Assembly: GCF_000300005.1 (NCBI RefSeq)
Contig: NC_018691.1
Location: 1,054,001 to 1,118,000 of the forward strand
Direction of reading: 5' to 3'
Source of the DNA: Alloalcanivorax dieselolei B5
GTDB taxonomy: Bacteria > Pseudomonadota > Gammaproteobacteria > Pseudomonadales > Alcanivoracaceae
Length of the DNA stretch: 64,000 nt
The notes beneath the pieces are model-generated. The model made no database searches. It was not told the DNA's origin and saw only the letters and a list, made by a program, of their open reading frames with translations. Of this stretch, positions 28,901 to 52,128 are shown one piece after another (the first letter of the stretch is position 1; each line of letters opens with the position of its first letter). The translations under genes were made by a program, and so were the position numbers.

Positions 28901-29695
28901 ATGAGCAACGGCACCATTCTTGATCGTATCATCGAACGTAAAGAGCAGGAGATCGCCGACGGCAAGCGCCGTTACAGCATGGGGGATCTGCGGGCGCTGG
29001 CGGAGAATCAGCGGCGGGCGAGAGGTTTCCATCGAAAGCTGTATGATCGCGTGGCCGAGGGCAAGCCGGCGGTGATCGCGGAGATCAAGAAAGCCTCTCC
29101 CAGCAAAGGGGTCATTCGTGAGGACTTCGACCCGGTGGATATCGCCCGGCGCTATGAGGAAAACGGCGCCGCCTGCCTGTCCGTGCTCACCGATCAGGAG
29201 TTCTTCCAGGGGCATGAAGACTATCTGCGCGCCGCCCGTAACGCGGTGTCGCTGCCGGTGCTGCGCAAGGATTTCATCGTTGATCCCTGGCAGGTGTTCG
29301 AAACCCGGGCCATGGGGGCGGACGCCATTCTGCTGATCGTGGCGGCGCTGTCCGATGCGCAGATGGATGAGCTCTACCACGCCGCCCAGCAGGCCGGCTG
29401 TGATGTGCTGGTGGAAGTGCACTCCGCCGAGGAGCTGGAACGGGCGATGAAGCTGAACGTGGAGGTGGTGGGCATCAACAACCGCGATCTGCGCACCTTC
29501 GAAACCCGCCTGGACACCACTCTGGAACTGGCGCCGCAAGTGCCCGCCGATCACCTGGTGGTCACCGAGAGCGGCATCCACACCCGCGCCGACGTGCGCC
29601 TGATGCGTGACAACGGCATCCACGGCTTCCTGGTCGGCGAGGCCTTCATGCGCGAGGAAGACCCCGGCGCGGCGCTGAAGAAACTGTTCTTTTAG
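28901..29695 (+). CDS. trpC: Indole-3-glycerol phosphate synthase
   Basis: 264 aa from ATG 28901, with an AGGAG ribosome site; the frame extends upstream but without family similarity. TIM-barrel motifs include AVIAEIKKASPSKGVIREDFDPV (catalytic Glu and Lys), CLSVLTDQEFFQG, LRKDFIVDPWQ, GINNRDLRTFE and ESGIHTRADV. It closes the indole ring of CdRP. Monofunctional, without the TrpF domain of E. coli. The stop codon overlaps the first bases of the inverted-repeat element. Confidence 0.98.
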   Translation: MSNGTILDRIIERKEQEIADGKRRYSMGDLRALAENQRRARGFHRKLYDRVAEGKPAVIAEIKKASPSKGVIREDFDPVDIARRYEENGAACLSVLTDQEFFQGHEDYLRAARNAVSLPVLRKDFIVDPWQVFETRAMGADAILLIVAALSDAQMDELYHAAQQAGCDVLVEVHSAEELERAMKLNVEVVGINNRDLRTFETRLDTTLELAPQVPADHLVVTESGIHTRADVRLMRDNGIHGFLVGEAFMREEDPGAALKKLFF

Positions 29696-29847
29696 TTGAC
29701 AGTGGATAGTTGACAGTTGACAGCGAAAACCTGAAAACAGACCAAAAACAAAAGGCCGCACCCAACACTGGGACGCGGCCTCTTTCGTTGCTGCTCACGC
29801 GGATCTGATCCGCGCCGCTGTCAACTGTCCACTATCAACTGTCAACT
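29694..29847. repeat. 154-bp inverted-repeat element, copy A, between trpC and crp
   Basis: Terminal 32-bp arms (29694-29725 and 29816-29847) match each other at about 30 of 32 positions and contain the word AGTTGACAG repeatedly. The middle (about 29750-29785) is a G+C-rich hairpin, AGGCCGC...GCGGCCT, flanked by A and T runs. The element begins within the trpC stop codon and ends 10 bp before the crp stop, so it fills the convergent gap. It is homologous, in opposite orientation, to copy B. It likely acts as a two-way terminator. Confidence 0.85.
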
Positions 29848-29857
29848 TGGCACGCGT

Positions 29858-30487
29858 TCAGCGCGTGCCATACACCACCATGGTCTTGCCCTTCACGGAT
29901 ACCAGGCCCTGCTCTTCCAGATTCTTCAGGACCCGGCCGACCATCTCGCGGGAGCAGCCGACGATACGGCCGATCTCCTGGCGGGTGACCTTGATCTGCA
30001 TGCCATCGGGGTGGGTCATGGCGTCGGGCTGCTTGCACAGGTCCAGCAGGGTGCCGGCGACCCGGCCGGTGACGTCAAGGAACGCCAGGTCGCCCACCTT
30101 GCGGGTGGTGGCGCGCAGACGGCCGGCCAGTTGCGCCGATACGGCGAACAGAATGTCGGCGTCTTCCCGGGTCAACTGACGGAATTTGGCGTAGCTCACC
30201 TCGGCCACTTCGCACTCGGTTTTCGCTTTCACCCAGGCGGAACGGGAAGGGTCGCTCTCGAACAGGCCCATTTCACCGAAGAAGTCTCCTTCGTTGAGGT
30301 AGGCCATGATCATTTCGCGACCGTCGTCGTCCTCGATCATCACCGTGACCGAGCCACGGAGAATGTAATAAAGGGCGTCGGACTCATCGCCAGCGTAAAT
30401 AATGGTGCTCTTCGCCGGATACCGCCGACGGTGGCAGTTGGCCAGAAAGTGGTCCAGATTGGGAATAATCTTGTTGCCGTCGCTCAT
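29858..30487 (-). CDS. crp: cAMP-binding global regulator Crp/Vfr
   Basis: 209 aa. Cyclic-nucleotide domain with [24 protein letters not shown] (phosphate-binding cassette with Glu and Arg), C-helix region, and a winged helix with recognition helix [24 protein letters not shown] that closely fits Crp/Vfr. It binds cAMP and activates promoters for carbon use and, in pseudomonads (Vfr), virulence and motility. The placement next to trpC and opposite osmC/speD/coq7 is the vfr synteny of Pseudomonas. Confidence 0.96.
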
Positions 30488-30736
30488 GGGGTCTCTGCTT
30501 AAGCCAGAAGAATGTCTTAGCCGATTAAGCTCAAGGATATTGCCTGTTTTTCACATCGCTGCCAAGGGCGGGAGCCCGCGAGAGCGCAAAGGGGTGACGC
30601 CGGTCCGCTGTCGGGGCGCCCCGGAGGCGGCAAACCAGGCTCTAAGGGTATGGTCGCGGGGCCGCTCTGTGGTAATCTGCGCGCCCATTTGGGGGCGGGC
30701 CCGGCGGGCCGCTCCGGTGCCGAGCAGGAGTAGGTG

Positions 30737-31156
30737 ATGAAAGCTGTGGTTGAATGGCAGGGCGAAGCCTGTTTCCAGGCGGAATCCGGTTCCGGTCACA
30801 CCATCCTTATGGACGGTCCGCCCGATCATGGCGGCCAGAATCGCGGTGCGCGCCCGATGGAAACCCTGCTGATGAGCGTTGGCGGCTGTTCCGCGTTCGA
30901 TGTGGTGCATATTCTGCGCAAATCCCGTCAGAACGTGACAGGCTGCCGCTGTGAGCTGAGCGCGGAGCGGGCGGAGGACGAAGTTCCCGCCGTATTCACC
31001 AAAATTCATTTGCACTTCGTGGTATCCGGCGAGGATCTCAAGGAGGCGCAGGTGAAACGGGCAGTGTCATTGTCGGCGGAGAAGTACTGCTCCGCGTCGA
31101 TCATGCTCACCCGTGGTGGTGTGGAAGTCACCCACAGCTATACCATCGAAGCCTGA
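30737..31156 (+). CDS. OsmC/Ohr family protein (YhfA-like)
   Basis: 139 aa from ATG 30737, AGGAG six bases upstream; a GTG at 30734 is not favoured. The OsmC fold is seen in NRGARPMETLLMSVGGCSAFDVVHILRKSRQ (first Cys) and SAEKYCSASIML (second Cys), the redox pair of peroxide-reducing OsmC/Ohr proteins. The YhfA subgroup sits next to crp in many gammaproteobacteria and its true substrate is uncertain. Confidence 0.93.
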   Translation: MKAVVEWQGEACFQAESGSGHTILMDGPPDHGGQNRGARPMETLLMSVGGCSAFDVVHILRKSRQNVTGCRCELSAERAEDEVPAVFTKIHLHFVVSGEDLKEAQVKRAVSLSAEKYCSASIMLTRGGVEVTHSYTIEA

Positions 31157-31301
31157 GCGGATACCCTTCGCCAAGGCGGCGAGGTGCCGGCCGGACCTGG
31201 GCCGGCACCAAAAAACCTGCGGATTCCCGGTGCGGTCAACCGTATCCGGGGTTGAGTGAGAGTTAACCACGGGCGGTGACGACCGCCAACGGGGAAATGC
31301 G

Positions 31302-32105
31302 GTGGTAAAAGATCCCAATCCCAAGATTTCGGTGCATGGTTTCAATAACCTGACCAAGTCGCTCAGCTTCAATATTTTCGACATCGCCTACGCGAAGACC
31401 GAGCAGCACCGCAAGGAGTACATCGAGTACATCGATGAGCTTTACAATGCAGAGCGGTTGACTGAAATCCTCACCAACGTGACGCGCATCATTGGCGCCA
31501 ACGTCCTCAACGTGGCCCGCCAGGACTACGATCCGCAGGGTGCCAGTGTGACCATGCTGATCGCGGAACACGAAACCCCGCCGAGCGGCACCGACTGGGA
31601 CGAAGAAGCGCCCGGTCCGCTGCCGGACACGGTGGTGGCGCACCTGGACAAGAGCCATGTGACCGTTCACACCTATCCGGAATCCCATCCGGACAACGGT
31701 ATTTCCACCTTCCGGGTGGATGTGGATGTGTCCACCTGTGGCGTGATCTCGCCGCTGAGGGCGCTGAACTACCTGATCCACAGCTTCGACTCCGATATCG
31801 TCACCATCGATTATCGGGTCCGCGGCATGACCCGGGACCTGGACGGCACCAAGCATTACATCGATCACGACATCACCTCGATCCAGAACTTCCTGGTCGA
31901 GGACACGCAGAACGCCTACCAGATGATCGACGTCAACGTGTACCAGGAGAACATCTTCCACACCAAGATGCTGCTCAAGGACTTTGACATCGAAAACTAC
32001 CTGTTCGGCGCCGGCAGCGACGAATTCGACGACGCCGAACTGGTGGAGATCAAGGAACGCCTGCAGACCGAAATGCTGGAGATTTTCTACAGCCGGAACA
32101 TGTAA
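31302..32105 (+). CDS. speD: S-adenosylmethionine decarboxylase proenzyme
   Basis: 267 aa of the E. coli type (264 aa). GTG start 31302 with GGGGA upstream; the nearby ATG 31297 opens only a 3-codon frame. [12 protein letters not shown]-type sequence ([23 protein letters not shown]) contains the Lys-Ser self-cleavage site that creates the pyruvoyl group; [17 protein letters not shown] and [15 protein letters not shown] are also conserved. It makes decarboxylated SAM for spermidine synthesis. Downstream is repeat copy B. Confidence 0.97.
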
Positions 32106-32114
32106 GAAAAGGGC

Positions 32115-32268
32115 AGTTGACAGTTGATAGTGGACAGTTGACGGCGCCGCGGACCAGGTCTGCGTGAACGGAAACGAAAGAGGCCGCGTCCAGGTGTTGG
32201 GCGCGGCCTCTTTGCTTTTGGTCTGCTTTTAGTTTTCGCTGTCAACTGTCCACTATCAACTGTCAACT
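32115..32268. repeat. 154-bp inverted-repeat element, copy B, between speD and coq7
   Basis: Arms at 32115-32146 and 32237-32268 (32 bp each, about two mismatches) enclose a hairpin at about 32177-32213 with AGAGGCCGCG paired with CGCGGCCTCT and A/T runs on both sides. The whole is the same length as copy A and aligns with its reverse complement. It begins 9 bp after the speD stop and ends 7 bp before the coq7 stop. Both directions have a T run after the hairpin, as a bidirectional terminator should. Confidence 0.88.
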
Positions 32269-32275
32269 GTATTCA

Positions 32276-32944
32276 CTAGATCCTGTAGGTGGTGAATGTC
32301 ATCACCTTGCTCATCAGGGTCATGGCGCGGCGGATTGGGGAGGGGAGGGGGGCGCCGCCGGCGTCCTCGGCGGTGACGGCGTGTTTCAGTTCGTCCTCGC
32401 GCATCTGCTCGAGAATGGCGCGGGTGCGGTGATCACCGGCGGGCAGTTCGGACAGATGCCGCTCCAGATGGCGTACCACCTGATGCTCGGTTTCCGAGAC
32501 AAAGCCCAGGCTCCAGCGGTCTCCGGCCAGCCCTGCGCCGGCGCCGAGGGTGTAGCTCATGGCATAGAACAGCGGATTCAAACGGCTGGGCACGCTGCCC
32601 AGTTCACGGATACGGTCCTCGCACCAGGCCAGATGGTCTTCTTCCTCCCGGGCGGCTTCTTCCATGGCATGGCGTACGTGGGGCAAGGTGGCGGTGCTGG
32701 CCTGGCCCTGGTACAGCGCCTGGGCGCAGACCTCGCCGGTGTGGTTGATGCGCATCAGGCCGGCGATATGGCGCTGCTGCCGGGCGTCCAGGAGGGCGCT
32801 CCGGTTCTTGATGGCGGCTTCGTCGTCGCCGGGTTGGGCGGCGGGCTGCCGGGAGGCCCGGGTGGACCCGGGAGTGAGGGTACGCAGCGCGTTGTCCACG
32901 CGGCTGAGCAATTGGTCCACTGGCGTCAGGTGACGACCCGTCAT
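32276..32944 (-). CDS. coq7: 3-demethoxyubiquinol 3-hydroxylase (Coq7/CatA)
   Basis: 222 aa from ATG 32944, GGAGAAG upstream; the open frame continues to 33046 but its N-terminal extension is Arg/Pro-rich and unlike the family. Di-iron ferritin-like motifs: [41 protein letters not shown] and [13 protein letters not shown] supply the Glu and His iron ligands. It performs the last hydroxylation in ubiquinone synthesis, consistent with the aerobic, quinol-oxidase lifestyle. The N-terminal 35 residues are a flexible extension. Confidence 0.95.
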
Positions 32945-33079
32945 CACGACTTCTCCACGATGCTCACGGGGCGGATGGTAAGCCGGCCCTGCCGATGTCC
33001 GTGGCGGACGCCGGTATGGCCGGGCCGATAGTGTAGCAGGCAACACTCGCCATCGTCGCGGCGGCCCGCCTTGAGTGGG

Positions 33080-35869
33080 TCAGGATTCTTCCCCGGACTC
33101 CTCGACCTGGCCGCGCCGGGTAAACCGGATCAGCACGTCACGAAGCACATTCAGTTCCACCGGTTTGGGAATGTGGGCGTTCATGCCGGAGGCCAGGCTG
33201 CGTTCCCGGTGTTCGCGCAGGATATGGGCGGTAAGGGCGACGATGGGCACCGCCACCAAACCGTTTTCCCGCTCGTGGGCACGAATCCGCCGGGTGGCCT
33301 CGAACCCGTCCAGCTCCGGCATTTCGCAATCCATCAGGATCAGGTCATAACGCTTCTGGGTGGCGCGGTTGAGGGCTTCCAGGCCGTTGGCGGCCATCTC
33401 CGGAGTAATGCCCAGTTTGTTGAGCATGCCGCGGATGACTTTCTGGCTCAGCTTGTGGTCCTCGACCACCAGCACCTGCAGCCCGGGGTCCGGGCTCTCG
33501 TTGCGCTGGCGGGGCGCCGAGGGCCGCTGCAAGCCCAGTTCCTCGCTCAGTACCTGTTTGAGGCGCGGCGCCGACACCGGTTTGGTCAGCACCCGGTGAA
33601 TACTGACGTTACGTGCGTCCACATCGGTGGGGGAACTGCTGATGCCGGTGAGCATGATCAACACCGGCGAGTGGGTGATGACCGGATCCTCGTGGATCCG
33701 TGCCGCCAACTGCACTCCGGTCATGCCGGGCATCTGGTGATCCAGCAGCACCACATCGTAGGGCTCGTTGATATTGGCCTGAGTGCGCAACGAGGCCAGG
33801 GCTTCGCGTGGATCGTTGCTGGCGGTGACGCGCATGCCCCAGCTCAGGGCCAGATGGCGGATCACCCGGGTCACGGTGGTGGAATCATCCACCACCAGCA
33901 TGCTGCGACCCAGCAGGGGGACCCGGTCCGCCGGGTTGTCGGGGGCCGGATTATCCAGCGCCGACAACGGCACGATGAACCAGTAGGCCGGGTCCTGGTT
34001 GTGCCCATCGCGGTGGCCACAGCGGCCACTCATGGCTTCCACCAGTTGCTCGGCGATGGCCAGGTTCAGCGTGCTGCTGTCCTGGCGGGCACCGTTTTCC
34101 CGCAGATCGTGCAGGGTGCCGGCGCGCAGAGCGGTACCGGAGAATTCAAAGCGCACCTGACCGGCCTGGCCGGTGGGTTCCAGCGACACATCGATGATCA
34201 GTTCGCCGTGCTGGGCCTGGCGGATGAAAGCGCCAATCAGGTTGGTCAGCACCTGGCGCAGGCGTCCGGGATCCCCCTCCATGCGCGCCGGCACATTGGT
34301 GTGCACGTGGGTGATCAGTTCCACCTGCTTTTCCTCGGCCCGTTCGCGGAACAGGTCCACGGCGTCCACCAGCAGCTCGTGTACATCCAGGGCCTCATGG
34401 CTGATCTCGGCGCCGGATGTCGACAACTGGGAGTACTCCAGCACATCGTTGATGATCTTCAACAGGCTTTCGCCGGCGTTGTGGATGGCGCTGACGCATT
34501 CCTTCTGGTTGGGCGTTAGCGGGGTATCGTCAAGCAGTTCCGCCATGCCGAGAATGCCGCTGAGCGGGGTGCGGGCATCATGCCCCATGCGCGCCAGGGT
34601 TTCGCGCCGGGTGGTTTCGACGGTCTCGGCGACGGCTTGATTGCGCAGCTGCTCCGCCTTGAGACGCTGGCGGCGCTGATGCTGCAGACGCAAACCGGCG
34701 GTCTGCAACGTGCCCGCCACGGTGAACACCAGAAGGAGGGTCAGGGGCACGTCCAGGCCGGTATGCAGCAGGCCCAGGGTGACCAGGCACAAAATGGCCA
34801 CCGGTACCCCCACCAGGATGCTGGTGAAGAAGAACAGGGCGCCGGCGGGGACTTCCCGATGCCAGGCCTGATAGCCGAGCGCGACCAGACAGGGGACGGT
34901 GAGCAGCACAAGTATGCAACACAGTCCCATCGCCGCGGGTGATGGCAGTATCAGCAGCAAAGGGATCTGAACCAGGGCCAGAGCGCCCAGCACCAGCAGG
35001 ATGTAATGCAGGGCCGGGCTGTGCTGGCGGCTGTCGACGAAGGTGCGCCCGGCGCCGCAGGCGGCGAACAGAGCCCCGGAAAGCAGGGTCAGGCGCAGCG
35101 GGTGATCCCAACTGCTGAGATCGTCCAGATGGCCCAGGAAGCCGCTGCCGATGATGATCAGGCCGATGACACAGAATCCGAACAGGGCATGGTAGCCGTG
35201 GCTGGTGGCGGAACGCATGAACGCCAGGGCCAGATGGTAAAGGGACATGGCCAGCAACATACCGATCAACAACCAGTAGACGCCGTACAGCGGGTTGTCT
35301 CCGAGCGCCTTCTGCATGGTGGTGAGCGTCAATGCATAGACCAGTTCACCATGAGGATTCACCCGCCAATAGAACACTTGGGGCTGGCCCAGCGGCAGGT
35401 CGAGCACCTGGATCGGGTAGCGGTGAACAAAGGACTCATCCGGCAGTGGCGTACGATAACGGGTGGTGCCGGGTGGGCCATCGGGAAGGTAGAACTGGCT
35501 GTCCTGGTAGGCGCGAGGGGCCATCACCAGCGCGAAACGCTGCTGGTCGGACAGCTCATTGTGGATGGAAATGCGAATCCACCAGTCGTGGTTGCTCAGC
35601 CCGAGCCGTTCGACGAAACGGGATGCCGGCTGGAAACGGTGGTCCAGGCCGCCGCTGGCCACGTCCTCCAGGGAATAGACGTTGTCCGGGTCGGGCAGGT
35701 ATTCGGAATAGATGGTGATGCGGGCGTCGTCCGGCTCACTGTTGATCACGAACGGCGGCGGGGGAGCCGCCCAGGCGCGACCGGCGACCAACCAGAGCAG
35801 GCCGAAGATCAGCGGCAGCCACCGCGCTGGTGTGTTATTCCGTGGCCAAAACGTCCTTGGTGGCATCAT
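33080..35869 (-). CDS. RetS-like hybrid sensor kinase (7TMR-DISM, HK, two REC domains)
   Basis: About 929 aa. Signal peptide, a DISMED2 periplasmic domain (about 45-185), seven transmembrane helices (about 195-390), an H-box ARMGHDARTPLSGILGMAEL (His430), and receiver domains with Asp710 (VVLLDHQMPG) and Asp847 (LILMDCEMPE). This is the RetS order and length. The ATP-binding region is degenerate: N-box LTNLIGAFIRQAQ lacks the usual Asn, and no DxGxG or GxGLG boxes are seen. So it may signal without its own kinase activity, as RetS does by contacting GacS. Start uncertain; ATG 35869 chosen, overlapping the upstream gene by 35 bp. Confidence 0.88.
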   Translation of the reverse strand: MMPPRTFWPRNNTPARWLPLIFGLLWLVAGRAWAAPPPPFVINSEPDDARITIYSEYLPDPDNVYSLEDVASGGLDHRFQPASRFVERLGLSNHDWWIRISIHNELSDQQRFALVMAPRAYQDSQFYLPDGPPGTTRYRTPLPDESFVHRYPIQVLDLPLGQPQVFYWRVNPHGELVYALTLTTMQKALGDNPLYGVYWLLIGMLLAMSLYHLALAFMRSATSHGYHALFGFCVIGLIIIGSGFLGHLDDLSSWDHPLRLTLLSGALFAACGAGRTFVDSRQHSPALHYILLVLGALALVQIPLLLILPSPAAMGLCCILVLLTVPCLVALGYQAWHREVPAGALFFFTSILVGVPVAILCLVTLGLLHTGLDVPLTLLLVFTVAGTLQTAGLRLQHQRRQRLKAEQLRNQAVAETVETTRRETLARMGHDARTPLSGILGMAELLDDTPLTPNQKECVSAIHNAGESLLKIINDVLEYSQLSTSGAEISHEALDVHELLVDAVDLFRERAEEKQVELITHVHTNVPARMEGDPGRLRQVLTNLIGAFIRQAQHGELIIDVSLEPTGQAGQVRFEFSGTALRAGTLHDLRENGARQDSSTLNLAIAEQLVEAMSGRCGHRDGHNQDPAYWFIVPLSALDNPAPDNPADRVPLLGRSMLVVDDSTTVTRVIRHLALSWGMRVTASNDPREALASLRTQANINEPYDVVLLDHQMPGMTGVQLAARIHEDPVITHSPVLIMLTGISSSPTDVDARNVSIHRVLTKPVSAPRLKQVLSEELGLQRPSAPRQRNESPDPGLQVLVVEDHKLSQKVIRGMLNKLGITPEMAANGLEALNRATQKRYDLILMDCEMPELDGFEATRRIRAHERENGLVAVPIVALTAHILREHRERSLASGMNAHIPKPVELNVLRDVLIRFTRRGQVEESGEES

Positions 35870-36893
35870 CCGTCGTCGTTTCCCGATCCAGCACATACGC
35901 ATCCAGGCCGGCTTCGGAAAGGATATAGGCTCCCAACTCGCTGCGTCGACCGGCGGAACACAGTATATAAGTGAAATCCCGCTCCAGGGCGGGGGCTTTT
36001 TGTCTCAGTTCGCCCAATGGAATGTTGCGGGCTCCGGGTGTCCGGTCGTGCCGGAACTCCGCCGCCAGCCGCACATCGAGCAAAATACAGGCGTGATCAC
36101 CGTCGCGAACCATCTCGTTGAGGGTATCCTCATTCAAATGGCGGATCACCGAGGCCTGCAGAATTTCCTGGAAATCATCCTGCCCCAGGCACATCAATAC
36201 GCCATCGCTGGTCATGGTGACGGTGGCGTTGCGCGGCTGGTCGCTGATCAGCGCATCTTCGCCGAAAAAACGGCCCGGTCCCAGTGTGGCCAGGGTCTCG
36301 GCGCCGCGCCCCTGGCCGCGGGTGACCATGGCCTGGCCCTGCTTGAGTACATAGAAGGTGTCGCCGGCATCCCCTTCGCGGACCACGGTGGTGCCCATCT
36401 CCACCTCCCGGGGCTGGAACTTCATGAACAGCGTATGCAGTGTGGCCGGCGCGATGCGGGCGAACAGGCCGGAAGCCAGCAGCGCGTCGGTCCAGTCCCG
36501 TTGCTCGTCCTGTCCTGGCGGCGGTAGCAAATCAACCGCACCGGTCCAGGCCATCAACAAATCCAGCTTGTCCCGATCCAGGGTGTAAAGGGTGGCGTCG
36601 GTACGGGTGATGGCGTTGACGGTGTGAGGCGCGTAGTTGTCCAGGGCAAGATAGTTTTCGTCATCGGTGGCGCAGAAGGGCCGCACGCTGAAACCGGCAT
36701 CGATCAGATCCAGCTCACCATCCACCAGGAAGTAGGCCTTGTCACTGTGCTGACCCCGTTTGAACACCATCCGGCCGGGCGGCAGGTTCAGCACTGCCAA
36801 CTGGCCCTGGATGGCGTGCAGGTGGGTATGGCCGAGGCTGTCGAACGGAATAAACTCGGCGAGCCGGGACGGATCCGGCGTGGCGATGGACAT
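35835..36893 (-). CDS. Protein with two cyclic-nucleotide-binding domains and a rhodanese domain
   Basis: 352 aa. Domain 1 (about 20-125) is a divergent CNB fold. Domain 2 (about 145-245) has the full cassette, GRFFGEDALISDQPRNATVTM, with Glu and Arg. The C-terminal rhodanese (about 255-345) carries the active loop CSAGRRS, matching CxxGxR with catalytic Cys, so sulfur transfer or a Cys-based reaction is plausible. The ribosome site GGGGGAAG is strong. Its end overlaps the start of the hybrid kinase gene by 35 bp, suggesting joint function in nucleotide/redox signalling. Confidence 0.88.
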   Translation of the reverse strand: MSIATPDPSRLAEFIPFDSLGHTHLHAIQGQLAVLNLPPGRMVFKRGQHSDKAYFLVDGELDLIDAGFSVRPFCATDDENYLALDNYAPHTVNAITRTDATLYTLDRDKLDLLMAWTGAVDLLPPPGQDEQRDWTDALLASGLFARIAPATLHTLFMKFQPREVEMGTTVVREGDAGDTFYVLKQGQAMVTRGQGRGAETLATLGPGRFFGEDALISDQPRNATVTMTSDGVLMCLGQDDFQEILQASVIRHLNEDTLNEMVRDGDHACILLDVRLAAEFRHDRTPGARNIPLGELRQKAPALERDFTYILCSAGRRSELGAYILSEAGLDAYVLDRETTTDDATKDVLATE

Positions 36894-40827: not shown

Positions 40828-40919
40828 ACGCTTGCACGCCGACACGCTACACGCTTGCACGCCTGGTGTGGAGCGGAGCGGGGGTTGTCAGTTGCGTGCC
40901 AGCGTGTTGCGTGTTAGCG
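40828..40919. repeat. Inverted pair of GCGTG-family repeats upstream of purH
   Basis: ACGCTTGCACGCC...ACACGCTACACGCTTGCAC (40828-40860) faces GCGTGCCAGCGTGTTGCGTG (40894-40913) across about 33 bases, so the two can form a stem. The same words occur at 25387-25435 and 48463-48626. It lies 20 bp before the purH start and within the purH promoter region. Confidence 0.6.
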
Positions 40920-43618: not shown

Positions 43619-44503
43619 TTATGCGGACAGCTTGCGAACCCCGTCCACTCTTACCCAGTCTCCGCGCTGCTCGATCGGCGACAGATCAAACCAGGGCCGA
43701 TAGGCCCGCGCCACGGATTGGGCCTGCTCGGCGAGGATGCCCGATAACGCCAGCAGCGCCCCCGGTTTGCAATAGCTGGCCAGTGTCGGTGCCAACTCGA
43801 TCAACGGTGCCGCCAGAATGTTGGCGACCAGAACGTCGCACTGGAAACCCGCCGGCACGGCGTCCGCCGGACACAGATCGAGCCGGTCGGCCACCCGGTT
43901 GGCTTCAGCGTTGGTGCGGCTGGCCAGCAGGGCTTGTTCATCGATGTCATTGCCCAGGGCCTGCCCGGCGCCAAGCAGCAACGCGGCGATGGACAGTACG
44001 CCGGAACCGCAGCCCACATCCAACACGCGTTTGCCGGCCAGCGGCGCCGCTTCCAGCCATTCCAGGCATAGCGCGGTGGTTTCATGGGTGCCGGTACCAA
44101 AGGCCAGGCCCGGATCCAGACGCAGGTTGACCGCCTCCGGATCCGGCGGCTCACACCAGGTGGGCACAATCCATAGCCGTTCACCGAAGCGCATCGGGGC
44201 AAAGTCGTCCATCCAGGCCCGCTCCCAGACCTGATCCTCAAGCCGCTCGATACGGTGATCCTGGGGCGTCAGGCCCAGCGCATCCAGACGTTGGAGAACT
44301 TTTTCCAGGTCGTCCTGGTCCGAGAACAGGGCGGTGACCACGGTGGCCCGCCACAGCGGCCGTGCGCCGGGCGGCGGTTCGAATACCGGTTGGTCGGCGC
44401 CGTCGGTCAGGGTCACCGCCACCGCGCCCAGGGTTTCCAATGCGTCTTGCAGGGCGTCCGCCTGTTGCGAGTCGGAAGCCAGATGTAGTTGTTGCCAGGT
44501 CAT
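43619..44503 (-). CDS. prmA: Ribosomal protein L11 methyltransferase
   Basis: 294 aa. SAM motif RVLDVGCGSGVLSIAALLLGA (about residues 162-182), DPGLAFGTGTHETTALCLEWLE and NILAAPLIELAP are PrmA hallmarks. It trimethylates amino groups in L11. Divergent from the ICMT-like gene. Confidence 0.96.
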   Translation of the reverse strand: MTWQQLHLASDSQQADALQDALETLGAVAVTLTDGADQPVFEPPPGARPLWRATVVTALFSDQDDLEKVLQRLDALGLTPQDHRIERLEDQVWERAWMDDFAPMRFGERLWIVPTWCEPPDPEAVNLRLDPGLAFGTGTHETTALCLEWLEAAPLAGKRVLDVGCGSGVLSIAALLLGAGQALGNDIDEQALLASRTNAEANRVADRLDLCPADAVPAGFQCDVLVANILAAPLIELAPTLASYCKPGALLALSGILAEQAQSVARAYRPWFDLSPIEQRGDWVRVDGVRKLSA

Positions 44504-44635
44504 GACACCTCCATGGAGAAGCGGCAGTATAACGGCGCCGGGATAAAGTTTCTCCGTGACGGGCGTGAGCGTGACGGTTTTTCCACCGGCCGTTAAGGGG
44601 TACTATCCGGATTCGTCTATCGGACTGACTTGCCT

Positions 44636-45202
44636 ATGACTGAAGATGCCGCCGAGTTGATATTGGTGCTGATGGTAATCGCCAGTGCCTTGCTGTATCA
44701 GTTCGCGATGCCGCGTTTGCGGCGTCCGCGTGCGCTGACGCGCCCCTCGCCGGATCTCGAGCAAATCATTCTGATCGGCATGATGTTCTGCACCATGGTG
44801 GTGATCCCTTTCCTGGATATGATGGTGCCCTGGTTCGAGTTCGCCGACATCGTGTTCATGGATGAGATGGCCTGGCTGGGGCTGCTGCTTGGCAGCGCCG
44901 CGGTCTGGCTGTTCTGGCGCGCCAAGGAGGATCTGGCCCGCTGCTCTCGACGGCCGGTGGAAAGCGGTGTTTATCGCTATCTACGCCATCCCGCCTGCGC
45001 CGCCATGCTGCTCTGGTCCCTGGCGCAATTGCTGCTGTTACAGAATTGGCTGGCTGGCCCCGCCGCGGCCTTGACCTTTACAATGGTTTACTTGCTGCAG
45101 TTGCCCAGGGAAGAGCAACGTATGCTGGAGCGATACGGCCATCGCTATCTGGATTATATGGCGCGCACTCCGGCGATTCTGCCGCACTTCTTTCGCAAAT
45201 AA
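44636..45202 (+). CDS. Isoprenylcysteine methyltransferase-like membrane protein
   Basis: 188 aa from ATG 44636 (a TTG at 44630 is in frame). Four to five hydrophobic segments; RPVESGVYRYLRHPACAAMLLWSL and EEQRMLERYGHRYLDYM match the C-terminal ICMT/PEMT fold (RHPxY...E..L...F/YGxxY..Y). Members methylate lipids or small molecules with SAM; the substrate is unknown. The last codon and stop lie inside a 13-bp tandem duplication (45197-45222). Confidence 0.85.
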   Translation: MTEDAAELILVLMVIASALLYQFAMPRLRRPRALTRPSPDLEQIILIGMMFCTMVVIPFLDMMVPWFEFADIVFMDEMAWLGLLLGSAAVWLFWRAKEDLARCSRRPVESGVYRYLRHPACAAMLLWSLAQLLLLQNWLAGPAAALTFTMVYLLQLPREEQRMLERYGHRYLDYMARTPAILPHFFRK

Positions 45203-45251
45203 GGCTCGTAAATAAGGCTCGTAGGTGATCGCAAATAATCGTTCGCGATCA
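45197..45251. repeat. 13-bp tandem duplication and hairpin after the ICMT-like gene
   Basis: AAATAAGGCTCGT occurs twice head to tail (45197-45209, 45210-45222); the first copy contains the stop codon. TGATCGC (45226-45232) pairs with GCGATCA (45245-45251) in a 7-bp stem. Possible terminator without a T run, and a candidate replication-slippage site. Confidence 0.5.
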
Positions 45252-45319
45252 TTGATTTCCCATATTTGCGCCCCCATTAGCGGTGGTCGCCTTTAAAGCG
45301 GTTCAGGAGCCGTTTTCCC

Positions 45320-45982
45320 ATGATTCGGATTCATCCCCTCCGTCGTCAGCAGTTGGAGGACGTGATCAGCCATTCAGAAGTGGTCGAGCGCGACGGGCAC
45401 GGCATCAAGGTGCTGCGTCTGCGCGACGGTCGCTACCTGAAATACTTCCGGCGCAAGCGTTTCTTCAATCGCGAATTGTTGTCCCCGGCGGCGGTACGTT
45501 TCGCCCGCCATGCCCGGCAACTGGCGCAACTGCGCATCCCCACCCTGGAGGTGGAAAGCCTGCACCGCATTCTCGGTGAGCCGCATACGGTGGCGGTGTA
45601 CCAGCCGATGCCGGGCCTGACGCTGCGTCAGATGCTGGCTCGCGGGCAGGTGGACACCCAACTGATGTACCGGGTGGGCGTGTTTATCGCCCGGCTGCAC
45701 CGGCTGGGTGTGTTTTTCCGTTCCGTGCATCCGGGCAACATCGTCATCGACGGTCTGCGCATTGGCCTGATCGATGTACTGGATATGAGGGTGCGGCCCT
45801 GGTCCATGTCTCGTTGGGCCCGGCGCCGTAACTGGCTGCACTTTCTGCGTTGCGAGGAAGATCGTCCGCATCTGCGCGATGATCTGGTGGAGGCGTTACT
45901 GGTGGGCTACCGGGATGCCGCCGACCTGCCGTCCCATGAGATCGGCGAGGTGGCGGAGCGGGTCCGGCATTTGCTGGGCTGA
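45320..45982 (+). CDS. Small kinase-fold protein (toluene-tolerance Ttg8-like)
   Basis: 220 aa. DGHGIKVLRLRDGRYLKYFRRKRFFNRELLSPAAVRFARHARQLAQLRIP, FIARLHRLGVFFRSVHPGNIVI, GLIDVLDMRV and RRRNWLHFLR match the RIO/lipopolysaccharide-kinase-like family annotated as 'toluene tolerance protein' in pseudomonads. FRSVHPGNIVI resembles the HxDxxxxN catalytic loop, with HPGN replacing HxDxxxxN, and IDVLDMRV resembles the metal DFG-like Asp. Kinase activity is plausible but not shown; a role with cell-envelope sugars is guessed from the family. Confidence 0.75.
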   Translation: MIRIHPLRRQQLEDVISHSEVVERDGHGIKVLRLRDGRYLKYFRRKRFFNRELLSPAAVRFARHARQLAQLRIPTLEVESLHRILGEPHTVAVYQPMPGLTLRQMLARGQVDTQLMYRVGVFIARLHRLGVFFRSVHPGNIVIDGLRIGLIDVLDMRVRPWSMSRWARRRNWLHFLRCEEDRPHLRDDLVEALLVGYRDAADLPSHEIGEVAERVRHLLG

Positions 45983-45984
45983 GG

Positions 45985-46022
45985 CATCGCGGCCCTTTCC
46001 ATACAAAGAAAGGACCGCGATG
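45985..46022. terminator. Convergent hairpin between the kinase-like gene and accC
   Basis: CATCGCGG-C-CCTTTC pairs with GAAAGG-A-CCGCGATG (8 + 6 bp, one mismatch), with an 8-base loop. It fills the 42-bp space between the two stop codons and is the expected two-way terminator. Confidence 0.7.
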
Positions 46023-46024
46023 TC

Positions 46025-47371
46025 TTAATGATTACCCAGTTTCTTTTCCAGGTGGTGGATATCCACGCCGCCTTCCTTGAACGCGGTGTCGCGGAAGATC
46101 TTGTCCCGGTGCAGGGCCACGTTGGTCTTGATGCCTTCCACCACGATCTCGTCCAGAGCGTTACGCATGCGGGCAAACGCCACGTCGCGGTTCTCGCCCC
46201 AGGTGATGATCTTGCCGATCAGTGAGTCGTAGTAGGGCGGTACGGTATAGCCGCCATAGACGTGAGAGTCCACCCGCACCCCATTGCCGCCCGGTGCATG
46301 GAAGTAGCTGATCTTGCCGGGGCTCGGGACGAAGGTGTTGGGATCCTCGGCATTGATCCGCACCTCGATGGCGTGACCGAGGAAGGTGATGTCTTCCTGC
46401 TGCAATGTCAGGCCTTCGCCGCCGGCGATACGCAACTGTTCCTTGACGATATCGACGCCGGTGATCATCTCACTGACCGGATGTTCCACCTGCACGCGGG
46501 TGTTCATCTCGATGAAGTAGAAGCCTTCGTTCTCGTACAGGAACTCAAAGGTCCCGGCGCCCCGGTAATTGATCTCCTTGCAGGCGTTGACGCAGCGTTG
46601 GGCCACTTCTTCCTTCAGGTGAGCCGGAATGTCGGGGGCCGGAGCCTCTTCCACCACCTTCTGGTGACGGCGCTGCAAGGAGCAGTCCCGGTCGCCGAGG
46701 TGTATGGCGTGGCCGGCGCCGTCGGAGAGCACCTGAATCTCCACATGGCGTGGCTTCTGCAGGAATTTCTCCATGTACACGGTGGCATCGCCGAAAGCGT
46801 TTTTCGCTTCGGAACGGGTCAGGGTCACCGCATTGAGCAATTGATCCGCATGTTCCACCACGCGCATGCCACGCCCGCCACCGCCGGCGGCGGCCTTGAT
46901 GATGACCGGATAGCCAATCTGCTCGGCCATGGCCTGGGTGGCTTCCGGGTCATCACCCACCGGACCATTGGAGCCGGGGACGGTGGGGACGCCGGCTTTT
47001 TTCATCGCCTCGATGGCGGACACCTTGTTGCCCATCAGGCGGATGGTATCAGCGCGCGGTCCGATGAAGGTGAAGCCGGAACGTTCCACGCTTTCGGCGA
47101 AGTCGGCGTTTTCCGCCAGGAAGCCGTAACCGGGGTGAATGGCATCCGCGTCGGTCACTTCCGCCGCGCTGATGATGGCGGGGATGTTCAAATAGGAATC
47201 GGTGGACGGCGCCGGGCCGATACACACCGCTTCATCGGCGAGACGCACGTGCATCAGATCGCGGTCCGCCTTGGAGTACACCGCCACGGTACGGATGCCC
47301 ATTTCCTTGCACGCGCGCAGCACGCGCAGGGCGATCTCGCCGCGGTTGGCAATGACGACTTTTTCCAGCAT
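46025..47371 (-). CDS. accC: Acetyl-CoA carboxylase, biotin carboxylase subunit
   Basis: 448 aa. [63 protein letters not shown] (ATP-grasp glycine loop), [18 protein letters not shown] (Glu and Asn metal site) mark biotin carboxylase. It carboxylates biotin on AccB with ATP and bicarbonate for malonyl-CoA synthesis. Follows accB by 11 bp. Confidence 0.98.
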
Positions 47372-47382
47372 TTCGACCTCCG

Positions 47383-47823
47383 TTAAACGATGGAGAACAA
47401 CGGCTGGTCGAATTCCACCGGTTCGCCGTCCTCGACCAGGATGGCATCAATAGTGCCGGATTTGTCCGCTTCGATCTGATTCATCATTTTCATCGCTTCG
47501 ACGATGCACAGCACGTCGCCGGCGTTGACCTTCTGGCCCACCTGGGCAAATGGGGTGGCGCCGGGAGAGGAGGCCCGGTAGAACGTGCCCACCATGGGAG
47601 AACGCACCAGATGGCCGGCCGGGGAGGCCGGTTCCGGCTCGGCCGCCGGAGTGGCTTGCGGGGCTGCCGGAGCGGCCGCCACCGGGGCGACGGGGGCCGG
47701 CGCGGCGTTGCGCCAGCCGCCCCGGGTGATGCGTACGGATTCTTCGTTCTCGTGAATTTCCAGTTCTTCGATTCCGGATTCTTCCAGCAGCTCGATCAAT
47801 TTCTTGATTTTTCGAATATCCAT
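47383..47823 (-). CDS. accB: Acetyl-CoA carboxylase, biotin carboxyl carrier protein
   Basis: 146 aa. N-terminal [25 protein letters not shown], a Pro/Ala-rich linker (about 43-70), and the lipoyl/biotinyl domain with EAMKMMNQI (the Lys is biotinylated). Between aroQ and accC, a widely conserved trio. Confidence 0.98.
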
Positions 47824-47858
47824 GTCCAGTCCTGTTGGGAGCTGTTGATGTTAAAAGG

Positions 47859-48311
47859 TCAGATGTCGTCGTCGGTGCCCAGACGGCGGATGGTCGCGTC
47901 CAGCGCCAATTGGTAACCGTCGGCGCCGAGACCACAGATCACTCCCTCGGCGATGTCCGAGAAATAAGAGTGATGGCGAAAGGTTTCGCGCCGGTGAATA
48001 TTGGAAAGGTGCACCTCGATAAACGGGATGCTCACCGCCAGCAGAGCGTCTCTCAGCGCCACGCTGGTGTGAGTGAAGGCGGCCGGGTTGATCAGAATGA
48101 AGTCGACGCCTTCCCCGCGGGCGGCATGGATGCGCTCAATCAACTCGTATTCCGCATTGCTTTGCATATGCTGCAGATGATGGCCGGCCTTCCGGGCCCG
48201 GATCTGCAGGGCCTGGTCGATTTCCGCCAAATTAGTGGCACCGTATTTGTCCGGCTCGCGCTGGCCGAGCAGATTCAGGTTGGGTCCGTGCAGAACCAGA
48301 ATGGTGGCCAA
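47859..48311 (-). CDS. aroQ: Type II 3-dehydroquinate dehydratase
   Basis: 150 aa. TTG start at 48311, with AGGGG upstream and no in-frame ATG nearby. [21 protein letters not shown] (catalytic Tyr later in [20 protein letters not shown] region), [18 protein letters not shown] are the AroQ signatures. It dehydrates 3-dehydroquinate in the shikimate pathway. 35 bp precede accB, implying an operon aroQ-accB-accC. Confidence 0.95.
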
Positions 48312-48462
48312 GATGGATACCCCTGAATGTGTCGTTATCTGCGGTGAACAGGAGGGAAAAACGGCATCAGGCCGGGGCTTTTCCCGAAGTTTGCAGTCTA
48401 GGGGGAATCGCCCGGCGAAAAAAGAACTTTACACTATTCGTTACATGTACCGATTCGCTTGT

Positions 48463-48626
48463 ACGCAATCACGCAATCACGCAATCACGCAACACGCTTG
48501 CACGCTAAACCCGAAGTTTGATCGCCGGATCCAGCGATGACTACCTTCCCGAGCAATCCAACCTTTCCGTTTCACACCAGCCTGGCAAACATGGCGTGCA
48601 AGCGTGCCTGCGTGTTGCGTGCCAGC
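48463..48626. repeat. 8-bp tandem array and inverted GCGTG-family repeats
   Basis: ACGCAATC is repeated three times (48463-48486) and runs into ACGCAACACGCTTGCACGC (48487-48505). About 86 bp later GCGTGCAAGCGTGCCTGCGT... (48594-48626) reads as its inverse. This covers half of the 330-bp gap between aroQ and dsbD; no gene is visible in the gap. The array of three units is too short to be a CRISPR. Confidence 0.6.
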
Positions 48627-48641
48627 ATCCGGGGCCCCGGA

Positions 48642-50552
48642 TCAGCCCGATGTGACCGGCAAAACGGTCTGTTCCAGATGGCGGATGAAGCGCTCCGGTC
48701 TCATCTCGCCGAGCACGCGGGATTCCGGGACTTCCTCGCCAGCGGGGCTGAAGAACACCAGACTGGGCAGACCGAAGATGTTGTATTCGGTCATGATCGC
48801 CTGGTTTTCGCTGTTGATGTCGGTGATATCCACCCGATAAAGATCGAATCCCTTCATGGTGGTCAGCACATCCGGATGGCTCAGCGTGGTTTCTTCCAGC
48901 ACCTTGCAGGCCACGCACCACTCGGCGAAGAAGTCCACCAGCACCGGCCGGCCGGCCCGGGAGGACTCCGCCAGGGCCTGACGCAGCGCCGCCTGACCGG
49001 TGAGGGTGCGCCAGGGGCCGTGGTCTTCCGTGGTCGCGGCGGGTTGCGCCGTGCCGGAAGTGGCGGTGGCCGGTGCCGCCGGTTGCTGCCAGTGGGCCAG
49101 CGGTTGCCATGGGTCGCGGGCGCCGGAGGCGGCGCCGATCAGCAAAATCACCCCGTACAGCGTCAGCACCAGGGCAAGGCCCCGTCGCAGACGGGAGCCG
49201 CCTTCTTTCACCGGTTCCAGGGCGCCCAGCTGGACGCCGTAAATGGCCAGCAACAGGCCGTACAGGGCCAGGGTCACCGGCGCCGGCACGATGCGGTCCA
49301 GCAGCCAAATGGCGACGCCGAGCATGACCACGCCGAAGAAGCGTTTGATCTCTTCCATCCACAGGCCGGCCCGGGGCAGCAAATGGCCGCCACCGGTGCC
49401 GAACAGAATCAACGGCACACCCATGCCAATGGACAGTGCGAACAGGCTGGCGGCACCGGTCAGGGCGTCGCCGCTGCCGGCCACATAGATCAGGGCGCCG
49501 GCGAGGATCGGGGTGACGCAGGGTGACACCACCAGGGCGGAGATCATGCCGAGCAGGGCGGCGCCGGCCAGCCCCTTGCGCTTCGGACCGGTCTGGTTGA
49601 GCCGGTCGCGCAGGGCCGCCGGTAATTGCAACTCGTAAAGGCCGAACATGGCCAGTGCCAGCAGTACGAAGATCACCACACTGGTGATGATCGCGGCCGG
49701 CTGTTGCAGCAGGAACTGAAGATTCAGTCCGGCCCCGAACAGGGCCACCAGCAGCCCCGCCAGGGTGTAGGGCACCGCCACGCCGAGCACGTAGGCGCTG
49801 CTGAGCAGGAAGCCACGGCGGGCGCTGGGGTGTTGCTCACCGGCGATGATACCGGAGAGGATCGGAATCATCGGGAACACACAGGGCGTGAACGCCAGCA
49901 GCAGACCGCCGGCGAAGAACAGCCCGATCACCAGCCCCAGGCTCTGGCCGGAGATCCAGCGATTAAAGGCGTTGGCGTCCTCTGAAAACAACGTCTCCAG
50001 AAAGCCCTCGTCGCTTGCGGAGGCGGTTGGCGCGGTGGCCGGCGCGGCAGCGTTCAGCGCCGTGGCGGGCTTGCCGGGACGGGGCTCCTCGAAGGCGAAG
50101 GTCTTGCTGGCCGGTGGGTAGCACAGCAAATCCTCGATGCAGCCCTGATAACGCACTTCCAACTCGGTATCGGCCAGTGGCACGCTGCGCAACGGCAACG
50201 TCACTTCCAGCCGCTGGTAGAACACCTCGACGTCACCGAATATGGGGTCCACCTTCGGTTTGCCCGCGGGCATCTGGAACGCGGAAAAGTCATCGAGAAC
50301 GTTGCCGTTGGTGTCGCGGAGAATGAACTCAAAGCGCTGGCGGTACAGATAGACGTCGTCGAGCAGTTCAAAGCCCACCAGCACCGTCTGCTTGTCCCAA
50401 TCGGCATCCGCCATTACCTGGATCGCTTCGTCCACCGTGGGCGGCTGGTCGTTGCCCAATCCGCCGCTGCCGCCCAGAGACAGCGCAAGCGCGGGACCGG
50501 CGAGCAGCCCCAGCACAAAAAGGGATAATAGTGAACGCAAGCGTTGTGTCAT
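48642..50552 (-). CDS. dsbD: Thiol:disulfide interchange protein DsbD
   Basis: 636 aa from ATG 50552 (the frame continues to 50603). Signal peptide, N-terminal alpha domain with YQGCIEDLLCYPP (redox Cys pair), an eight-helix membrane domain with TPCVFPMIPILSG and VSPCVTPILAG Cys, and a C-terminal thioredoxin domain with FAEWCVACKVLEE (WCVAC). It moves electrons from cytoplasmic thioredoxin to periplasmic DsbC and cytochrome maturation. Separated from DUF2333 by a divergent 375-bp gap. Confidence 0.96.
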   Translation of the reverse strand: MTQRLRSLLSLFVLGLLAGPALALSLGGSGGLGNDQPPTVDEAIQVMADADWDKQTVLVGFELLDDVYLYRQRFEFILRDTNGNVLDDFSAFQMPAGKPKVDPIFGDVEVFYQRLEVTLPLRSVPLADTELEVRYQGCIEDLLCYPPASKTFAFEEPRPGKPATALNAAAPATAPTASASDEGFLETLFSEDANAFNRWISGQSLGLVIGLFFAGGLLLAFTPCVFPMIPILSGIIAGEQHPSARRGFLLSSAYVLGVAVPYTLAGLLVALFGAGLNLQFLLQQPAAIITSVVIFVLLALAMFGLYELQLPAALRDRLNQTGPKRKGLAGAALLGMISALVVSPCVTPILAGALIYVAGSGDALTGAASLFALSIGMGVPLILFGTGGGHLLPRAGLWMEEIKRFFGVVMLGVAIWLLDRIVPAPVTLALYGLLLAIYGVQLGALEPVKEGGSRLRRGLALVLTLYGVILLIGAASGARDPWQPLAHWQQPAAPATATSGTAQPAATTEDHGPWRTLTGQAALRQALAESSRAGRPVLVDFFAEWCVACKVLEETTLSHPDVLTTMKGFDLYRVDITDINSENQAIMTEYNIFGLPSLVFFSPAGEEVPESRVLGEMRPERFIRHLEQTVLPVTSG

Positions 50553-50927
50553 CGATTTCTCCAGATAACCGGTTTTGTCCCTGGCCCGGTTTCCCCCAAA
50601 CATAAAGAGCGGGGCCCCGACCTGCCGGCGGCGGCCCTGGCGCTATCCATTTTCTGTATACCCCGGGTAGATATAGAGGCCGCCGGCGCGGATCGGTTCC
50701 CAGTCTGCGCCTTGCGGATTAAAGGGGCTTTAAGAGCGGCGGCGAAGAACGCATTGTGCCCCCATGCCGAAATGGACGCAAAGACCGCTGCCGCCGGCGG
50801 CACGGGCCCTGTCGTTGGCGACAAAGGCTGCTATATTGGCGCACAATGCCGTGGAGTCCCGAGCCCGGGCTCCGACATGATGGAAAAGGCCGCTGCCGGC
50901 CTGACAGGACGCGAGTGGGGATCACCG
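50553..50927. other. Divergent intergenic region between dsbD and DUF2333
   Basis: 375 bp, G+C rich, with no gene that I can support. TATATT at 50832-50837 could be a -10 for the rightward gene but its -35 match is poor. CTATAT and TATACA in the opposite strand (about 50657-50676) are possible dsbD -10 elements. Open frames here lack coding character. Confidence 0.4.
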
Positions 50928-51920
50928 ATGAGTAATGAAAAGTTCTCCCAGAAGATGGGCGACCGGTTGCTGGATCCGGCCAATAACCGGATATGGAAAG
51001 GCGCCCTGTGGTTGATCGTGATCCTGCTTCTGGTGGATGTACTGCTCGGCTGGTACTGGAGCTGGGAGCCGGATCTCCAGGAAGTGCGGGCGCTCGCCGA
51101 TGCGAAAACCGGAGAGGTCACGACCCAGGAAGTGATCAATGTGGCCAGTACCCTGCTGGACAAGCCGGGCGGCTACCTGAGCAACGATGTTCTGCCGCAT
51201 CGCCTGTGGCTGGATAACATGCCGTCCTGGGAGTTCGGGGTGCTGGTGCAGTTACGGGATATGGTGCGGGTGATGCGCCGTGATATGAGCCGCTCCCAAT
51301 CCCAGAGTCAGGAAGACCGTAATCTGGCGATTGCCGAACCGCAGTTCAACTTCGACTCCCAAAGCTGGGCCATGCCCGCCACGGAAAGCGAATACCGCCG
51401 AGGTATCCGTGCGCTGGAGCGTTATCTGGAAAGCCTGCGTAGCGGCGATGGCCGATTCTACGCCCGCGCCGACAACCTGAATTCCTGGCTCAATGAAGTA
51501 CAGAACCGGCTTGGCGCCCTCAGCCAGGATCTCAGCCGCAGCGTCGGGCGCACCACTCTGGATACCGAGGACGATACCCCGGTGACGCAGTTGGACAGCA
51601 AGGAACGGATGGTGAAAACCCCGTGGCTGAAAATCGATAATGTTTTCTATGAAGCGAGAGGGGCGTCCTGGGCGCTGGTGCAACTGATGCGCGCGCTGGA
51701 AGTGGATTTCGCCGATGTGCTGCGCAAGAAGAACGCCACGGTCAGCTTCCGGCAGATGGTACGTGAGCTGGAAGCCACCCAGGAAACCCTGTGGAGCCCG
51801 ATGGTTCTGAACGGCTCCGGCTTCGGCATCTTCGCCAACCATTCCCTGGTCATGGCCAACTACCTGTCCCGCGCCAACGCTTCCCTGATTGATTTGAGGA
51901 AGCTGCTGCAAGAGGGATAG
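50928..51920 (+). CDS. DUF2333 family protein
   Basis: 330 aa from ATG 50928, with GGGGA six bases before it; an open frame continues to 50544 without family character. One helix near the N-terminus (about 26-46, LWLIVILLLVDVLLGWYW) anchors a mainly helical soluble domain containing TTQEVINVASTLLDKPGGYLSND and LLVKTPWLKIDNVFYEARG-type stretches known only as DUF2333 in gammaproteobacteria. Likely inner-membrane with a periplasmic domain. Function unknown. Repeat copy C follows. Confidence 0.88.
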   Translation: MSNEKFSQKMGDRLLDPANNRIWKGALWLIVILLLVDVLLGWYWSWEPDLQEVRALADAKTGEVTTQEVINVASTLLDKPGGYLSNDVLPHRLWLDNMPSWEFGVLVQLRDMVRVMRRDMSRSQSQSQEDRNLAIAEPQFNFDSQSWAMPATESEYRRGIRALERYLESLRSGDGRFYARADNLNSWLNEVQNRLGALSQDLSRSVGRTTLDTEDDTPVTQLDSKERMVKTPWLKIDNVFYEARGASWALVQLMRALEVDFADVLRKKNATVSFRQMVRELEATQETLWSPMVLNGSGFGIFANHSLVMANYLSRANASLIDLRKLLQEG

Positions 51921-51927
51921 AAAAAGC

Positions 51928-52128
51928 AGTTGACAGTTGATAGTGGACAGTTGACAGCGGCGCGAGACACGACCTGTTGATCCGAAAGCAAAGAGGCCGC
52001 GCCCAAAACTTGAGTGCGGCCTCTCTACTCCTAAACATTAATTCTCTGCTCTTTGCTGATACGCAAACAAACTTTGCATCACCGCATTTTTCTTTTCGCT
52101 GTCAACTGTCCACTATCAACTGTCAATT
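51928..52128. repeat. 201-bp inverted-repeat element, copy C, between DUF2333 and hydrolase genes
   Basis: Arms at 51928-51959 and 52097-52128 match copies A and B almost perfectly (one terminal change). The core hairpin lies at about 51990-52026. Relative to A and B, about 47 extra A+T-rich bases sit between the hairpin and the right arm. The element starts 7 bp after the DUF2333 stop and ends 4 bp before the stop of the convergent gene. Confidence 0.88.

Follow-up and report, generated by a model that had tools for sequence, protein, structure and literature searches.

Three copies (A, B, and C) of an inverted-repeat element lie in the stretch of the Alloalcanivorax dieselolei B5 genome studied here (NC_018691.1, positions 1,054,001 to 1,118,000; 64,000 nucleotides, hereafter “the window”), each fitted between two facing stop codons and bounded by arrays of 7-bp words (heptads). 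We propose that these copies are probably short, gene-less derivatives of mobile elements of the intervening sequence (IVS)/S23 type which have settled at gene ends. The coding form of this family would, in our judgment, likely consist of a gene of about 110–120 codons for a four-helix-bundle protein of family PF05635 (S23p), placed between inverted arrays of 7-bp words and related to the IVSs of 23S rRNA. At the sequence level, the arms are word arrays that start at stop codons, with an orientation fixed relative to the neighbouring gene; in about one third of the modelled cases the arm itself supplies the stop, the interior is interchangeable, and PF05635 genes in six phyla are adjoined by period-7 arrays. 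Evidence for mobility is indirect, and comes from the patchy presence of the element in relatives together with the existence of a coding relative with the same arms.

Anatomy of the window copies

A first-pass annotation of the window, made from its letters, had reported three full copies with 32-bp inverted arms, each filling the gap of a convergent gene pair. All three were recovered at 29694–29847 (A, 154 bp), 32115–32268 (B, 154 bp), and 51928–52128 (C, 201 bp), with inverted arms of 32 nt at 94%, 33 nt at 97%, and 38 nt at 95%, respectively. The gaps are indeed filled, since every arm starts at −2 to +10 bp relative to the stop of its facing frame, and copy A does begin within the trpC stop codon, to whose TAG the first two arm letters (AG) belong. 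The proposed flanking genes were matched with NCBIfam at A (trpC/crp) and B (speD/coq7), whereas the DUF2333/hydrolase pair proposed at C had no NCBIfam match.

An arm consists of four tandem heptads, typically AGTTGAC AGTTGAT AGTGGAC AGTTGAC, then AGCG, then an A-rich run, and as intergenic tandem 7-bp units the arms are heptanucleotide repeats in the sense used for short tandemly repeated repetitive (STRR)-like sequences. A strict period-7 scan of the window returned exactly the six arms of A, B, and C, while Markov resamplings of the window (n = 5) yielded zero arrays at periods 4–12; the real window also contains one array at period 8 and one at period 9. Copy B repeats copy A in inverted orientation (98 nt at 88%). 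The interiors of the window copies are 90–137 bp long and do not encode a PF05635 gene. Among the elements of this genome as a whole, interior modules recognized by eye include a GAGGCCGCG hairpin, pairs of hairpins resembling repetitive extragenic palindromic (REP) sequences (CTGTGGGAAGCTTGC), and a TTTGCGTATCAACAAAG module. The interiors are interchangeable: they vary from site to site and, at a given site, from one species to another. Folded as RNA, the whole of copy A reaches −81 kcal/mol (z −10.7) and the whole of copy C −92.8 kcal/mol (z −11.7), with both arms paired into a single long stem in the two folds. The window had no Rfam match at the gathering score.

Placement of arms at stop codons in fetched regions of the genome

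On the chromosome, the arm pattern has 86 forward and 96 reverse overlapping matches with at most three mismatches; the reversed pattern, although partly self-matching, has 47 and 61. A four-mismatch scan was applied to regions of this genome (G000; other G numbers denote comparison genomes) fetched on account of a listed match, and the set of arms used below is confined to them. It comprises 91 arms, of which 23 stand alone and the others form 34 inverted pairs, each within 460 bp; scoring of candidate arms covered 40 of 86. Polarity is uniform, with the heptad word outward and AGCG inward in every pair. The first-pass annotation had inferred a target preference for 3′ ends: 77 of the 91 arms start −13 to +14 bp from the stop of a frame of at least 100 codons on the arm’s strand, against 1,191 of 20,000 random window places (6.0%) and a single one of 91 reversed arms, and this preference therefore holds. 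A looser tally that used frames of at least 80 codons placed 71 of 91 arms at stops. Arms point away from the frame whose stop they meet.

Gene ends and orientations were then taken from a simple codon model, in which 70 arms have a gene end at −13 to +14 and 21 do not, and no gene end falls at +15 to +60 from any of the 91 arms. For the 70 arms with a modelled gene end, the stop is the TGA of the second heptad in 12 cases, that of the first heptad in another 12, and is located at −2 to +14 in 46, which makes a TGA inside the arm the stop for 24 of them. The bases preceding the arm are purine-rich (AAAGGC-like) in all of these classes, whether the stop precedes the arm or not, and the tip thus seems to be part of the element. 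Arm pairs were mostly found between convergent genes (22 of 34, with 11 in tandem and 1 in divergent context), while adjacent gene pairs of the same fetched regions (n = 242) were divided into 45 convergent, 148 tandem, and 49 divergent ones.

PF05635 genes beside period-7 arrays

One arm pair of this genome (869077–869538) encloses a 118-residue frame that matches PF05635 (E 9.9e-26) and the TIGR02436 four helix bundle protein profile (E 9.6e-29), and for which the closest solved chain is 2rld_A. A PF05635 protein of known structure is also named in the literature, Xcc0516 of Xanthomonas campestris (PMC10053308, PMC4990558). To our knowledge, PF05635 includes no recognised catalytic domain. 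The family is present in 21 of 57 relatives. The surroundings of PF05635 genes were evaluated at 30 loci from the family/order and at 24 of 25 plasmid records (one near-duplicate was skipped) originating from Cyanobacteriota, Bacteroidota, Spirochaetota, Bacillota, and Chloroflexota, with a flank defined as 300 bp. Period-7 arrays were detected in the flanks of 25 of the 30 family/order loci (on both sides in 17) and of 23 of the 24 plasmid loci (both sides in 18), and other periods between 4 and 12 in only 1 and 2 loci, respectively. Control belts at 450–750 bp contained arrays in none of the family/order loci and in one plasmid locus, and a belt at 1000–1300 bp in 3 of 30 loci. In 20 of the 24 plasmid loci, an exact inverted repeat of at least 12 nt is common to both flanks, and 26 of 42 arrays at family/order loci meet a stop.

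In six plasmid loci (L429, L432, L438, L435, L436, L437), the PF05635 gene is found beside or between defence genes, including cas2/cas1, a DISARM helicase, and DUF1156/Swt1 HEPN pairs.

Repeat words in relatives and their link to PF05635

We compared sites A and B and 20 intergenic positions (“slots”) with three relatives, mostly by eye; loci L153, L158, L175, L188, L192, and L193 were outside the reading of arms (L153 and L175 were read for open reading frames (ORFs) only). Conservation of the coding flanks extends as far as the tip of the element, and the arms and interior differ. G006, whose genes are about 93% identical, has an AGTKAAY word in 15 of the 17 slots read and AGTKGAY in the other 2 (by eye), and G008 is mixed, with one arm of each kind at slot A. 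Among 10 slots inspected in G004, three contained other words (AGGATRC, AGTTRAA) and seven were devoid of arms, which are also absent from its slot B. The gene to the right of slot 684939 (R) ends inside heptads in G000, G006, and G004, with three different words. Word counts also go with the genome: AGTKAAY (forward/reverse) matches 0/5 times in this genome, 75/69 times in G006, and 199/218 times in G033, and AGTTRAA is absent from this genome and matches 243 times in G003 (130/113), 208 times in G004, and 275 times in G001. At slot C, the corresponding loci of G006 (L153) and G008 (L175) span about 2.5 kb and include two additional genes, among them a methyltransferase-like 248-codon frame with its coding-strand end near the arms.

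Where tested, the word beside a PF05635 gene is mostly the one dispersed in the same genome. The genome of A. dieselolei has two PF05635 genes, one with AGTTGAC words and a second (G000:C1:265771-266046) with GCGTG words on both sides; no GCGTG 12-mers were found further out from the latter in 2,300 bp. AGTTRAA is found both at the PF05635 gene and genome-wide in G003 and G004, and one of the two PF05635 genes of G001 has the ACGCCTG word also seen in slot B of that genome. More broadly, when three words were counted across genomes, PF05635 was present in each of the 17 in which any of these words exceeded 10 matches, and in 4 of the 40 others (Fisher 4e-11, kinship ignored). In a tree of 54 PF05635 proteins, genes with AACTRTC/AATTATC words (AGTTGAY type) cluster with support 100/98.

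Across the class, a three-heptad pattern matched 5 of 369 genomes, this one included. The exact 30-base arm was found in 106 stretches of a named genome collection, of which 75 were from Alcanivorax-type records and 6 from one Pseudomonadales metagenome-assembled genome. The other 25 belong to Clostridia, Cyanobacteria, Anaerolineae, and Bacteroidales, and 9 of these are located at the stop of a frame of at least 100 codons (random 3.3%, reversed 0). Long arrays are common in cyanobacteria: one genome alone has 520 and 579 matches, overlaps included (194 and 196 for the reversed pattern).

Evaluation of alternative explanations

The copies could instead be gene-end insulators useful to the host, i.e., bidirectional terminators with stops at both ends that are kept by selection, with the repeats being incidental. 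A bidirectional terminator was also one of the roles put forward in the first-pass annotation, and A and B do present a hairpin with a T-run on both strands, although C does so on one strand only. The stops supplied by arms are real, and the 20 nt past an arm contain 10.2 A on average (background 18.6% A), both of which speak for this reading. However, the terminator test was passed on both strands by only 4 of 33 pairs, and on at least one strand by 10 of 33. Arms are moreover missing from most of the same slots in G004, and one and the same word recurs at numerous sites, with a concerted switch of word from species to species. We regard this insulator reading as unlikely.

Two further scenarios dispense with a mobile element or invert the order of events. 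The arrays could arise in place by polymerase slippage of 7-bp units, with the inverted symmetry generated by template switching. Slippage has been proposed for bacterial heptamers (2007 study cited in PMC4692102) and would fit the occurrence of arrays with at least 15 identical heptads. Yet local processes do not yield one word at about 90 unrelated places, and slippage leaves unexplained the tie to PF05635 genes, beside which periods other than 7 are nearly absent, so that we consider it very improbable. Alternatively, heptad arrays may have come first, with PF05635 elements inserting into them. An IS3-type insertion sequence (IS) with one 321-codon frame (rve, HTH_21) was found inside or against arms or pairs at four places of this genome (Table 1), hence these slots do collect insertions. 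In two elements of G006, the contigs are cut off at comparable IS ends. Against this order of events, the arrays that flank PF05635 genes are mutually inverted, tight on the gene, and composed of at least 20 different words in six phyla, and the belt at 450–750 bp is almost free of arrays. Such a reversed order appears quite unlikely to us.

Membership of the window copies in a PF05635-linked mobile family remains our preferred reading, and several observations weigh against it. Across 34 pairs, k-mers of 4–8 common to both flanks were not above shuffles, which provides no sign of a target duplication, and no jump of a copy was observed. Twelve of the 34 arm pairs are not between convergent genes, and arms are only slightly more complementary within an element than between different ones (25 pairs, with 2.96 versus 3.56 mismatches in 28; p 0.026). 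As for the protein, 5 of the 30 family/order loci fall below every period-7 threshold, arrays at plasmid loci meet a stop in only 7 of 41 cases (random about 5%), and neither of the two PF05635 genes of G001 carries AGTTRAA despite the richness of this genome in that word. The co-occurrence of words and PF05635 also partly reflects common descent. The first-pass comparison to miniature inverted-repeat transposable elements (MITEs) is likewise upheld in part: the inverted ends and dispersal are as expected, whereas the target duplication was not found and it is not the interior that is conserved.

Several other candidates were rejected. An autonomous transposon between distant arms was discarded as the 1.3–1.4 kb cases contain the IS3-type element with its own ends, and the long stem was discarded as a selected feature as arm–arm complementarity is barely above chance. 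A REP-associated tyrosine transposase (RAYT) was not retained as the mover, as the five Y1_Tnp matches in this genome would account for the REP interiors only. A sigma-70 promoter reading of TTGACA was dismissed given that 29600–32400 has no promoter-like site. A role as DNA uptake sequence was considered only, the copy number seeming too low.

Possible mechanism

If the window copies are gene-less members of such a family, they may descend from, or be spread by, the PF05635 coding form, and could then persist at gene ends without harm to either neighbour because the arm ends the upstream frame and the interior often offers a hairpin. Placement at stop codons would thus be a way for the element to live harmlessly between genes. 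In RNA, the two arms would form a stem of about 30 bp, which RNase III might be expected to cut since it cuts such stems in rRNA IVSs (PMC4990558). A possible lead to how copies might arise is that PF05635 has been likened to Avd, which serves diversity-generating retroelements as their accessory protein (PMC10053308).

We tentatively extend this proposal, as a possibility we hold with less confidence than the family assignment itself. PF05635 may act in trans on its own 7-bp word and spread gene-less arms, as a transposase-free relative of the REPIN–RAYT system (REPINs being REP doublets that form hairpins). On this view, footprints of such elements would make up many of the intergenic heptamers of bacteria (those of cyanobacteria, Beggiatoaceae, and Geobacter among others), with rRNA IVSs representing the special case of elements that landed in rRNA. 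If true, the excess of heptamers among bacterial repeats would be accounted for.

Relationship to known systems

In REPIN–RAYT systems, a Y1 transposase mobilises pairs of inverted REPs, and these short, dispersed elements thereby rely on a gene located elsewhere. The elements described here are similarly short, dispersed, and inverted, but their arms are heptads, REP pairs are found only as inner cargo of some copies, and PF05635 is not a Y1 transposase. The closest parallel to the coding form is the 23S rRNA IVS, which shares with it a PF05635-type protein and complementary ends with a stem of about 28 bp: the Coxiella burnetii IVS is described as encoding S23p, ending in a stem of 28 bp, carrying tandem heptamers close to the start of the ORF, and being excised by RNase III (PMC4990558). 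Unlike that IVS, which is inside rRNA (PMC4990558), the window copies are located between protein genes at stops and are without an S23p gene.

Heptamers have been described in several other settings. The TAACTGA repeats of Beggiatoaceae, Cyanobacteria, and Bacteroidetes provide stop codons in all frames and overlap gene ends, and their author raised a repeat-binding protein as a possible mobile element (PMC4679880). They resemble the arms as tandem 7-bp words with a patchy distribution over phyla, but differ in that most of them immediately precede gene starts in the genome described there and almost all are direct, and the portion of the article at hand states no PF05635 link (PMC4679880). 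In Geobacter metallireducens, paired tandem heptamer or octamer sites on opposite strands and at variable distance recall the arm pairs, but were explained as binding sites of unknown global regulators (PMC2700814). Likewise, the GGGAATC / GGGGATT heptamers of Xanthomonas and Nostoc are intergenic, kept between the same genes with variation, and in some cases form inverted pairs, but were studied as G-quadruplexes, with no element named in the text available (PMC4692102). Heptamers with stops at gene ends (TAACTGA), paired heptamers (Geobacter), and heptamers beside S23p in one rRNA IVS are thus already described in the parts of this literature at hand. Our literature search, sparse in subscription journals, found no link of PF05635 genes generally to inverted heptad arrays, nor of dispersed heptad elements to PF05635. 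Two puzzles meet at this point, namely the over-representation of heptamers without an agreed cause and the common, mobile-looking PF05635 genes of unknown function. Should inverted heptad arrays prove to be the usual surroundings of PF05635 genes, the protein would become a candidate for making the repeats, and the repeats a candidate for its target.

Feature coordinates and additional repeats

Table 1. Positions of arms, interiors, and second-family repeats in the window, and of the sites with an IS3-type element inside or against arms in the genome (G000).
Feature	Sequence	Position	Strand	Description
Copy A, left arm	Window	29694..29725	+	Four heptads + AGCG
Copy A, interior	Window	29726..29815		Terminator-like hairpin 29750-29785
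Copy A, right arm	Window	29816..29847	-	10 bp past crp stop
Copy B, left arm	Window	32115..32146	+	9 bp past speD stop
Copy B, interior	Window	32147..32236		Terminator-like hairpin 32178-32213
Copy B, right arm	Window	32237..32268	-	7 bp past coq7 stop
Copy C, left arm	Window	51928..51959	+	7 bp past stop of 50544-51920 frame
Copy C, interior	Window	51960..52096		GAGGCCGCG hairpin 51991-52026, then second module with TTTGCGTATCAGCAAAG on - strand
Copy C, right arm	Window	52097..52128	-	4 bp past stop of 52133-53341 frame
Lone arm	Window	2288..2319	-	No partner; 5 bp past stop of 640-codon frame
GCGTG words	Window	25385..25420		Second repeat-word family, period 7-8
GCGTG-word arrays	Window	40828..40918		Inverted pair
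GCGTG-word arrays	Window	48463..48626		Inverted pair; same words as at second PF05635 gene
Site with IS3-type element, locus L062	G000	503191-504592
Site with IS3-type element, locus L070	G000	1501770-1503251
Site with IS3-type element, locus L086	G000	2939401-2940864
Site with IS3-type element, locus L095	G000	4032332 on

The GCGTG word family of the window is found partly in upstream regions. REP-like hairpins (GCTGTAGGAGCTTGCC) also occur in the window outside the heptad elements, at 16873–16962 and 25320–25358. A separate AT-rich inverted repeat of 52 nt (59080–59131 and 60125–60176) is 79% complementary, with 993 bp between its arms.

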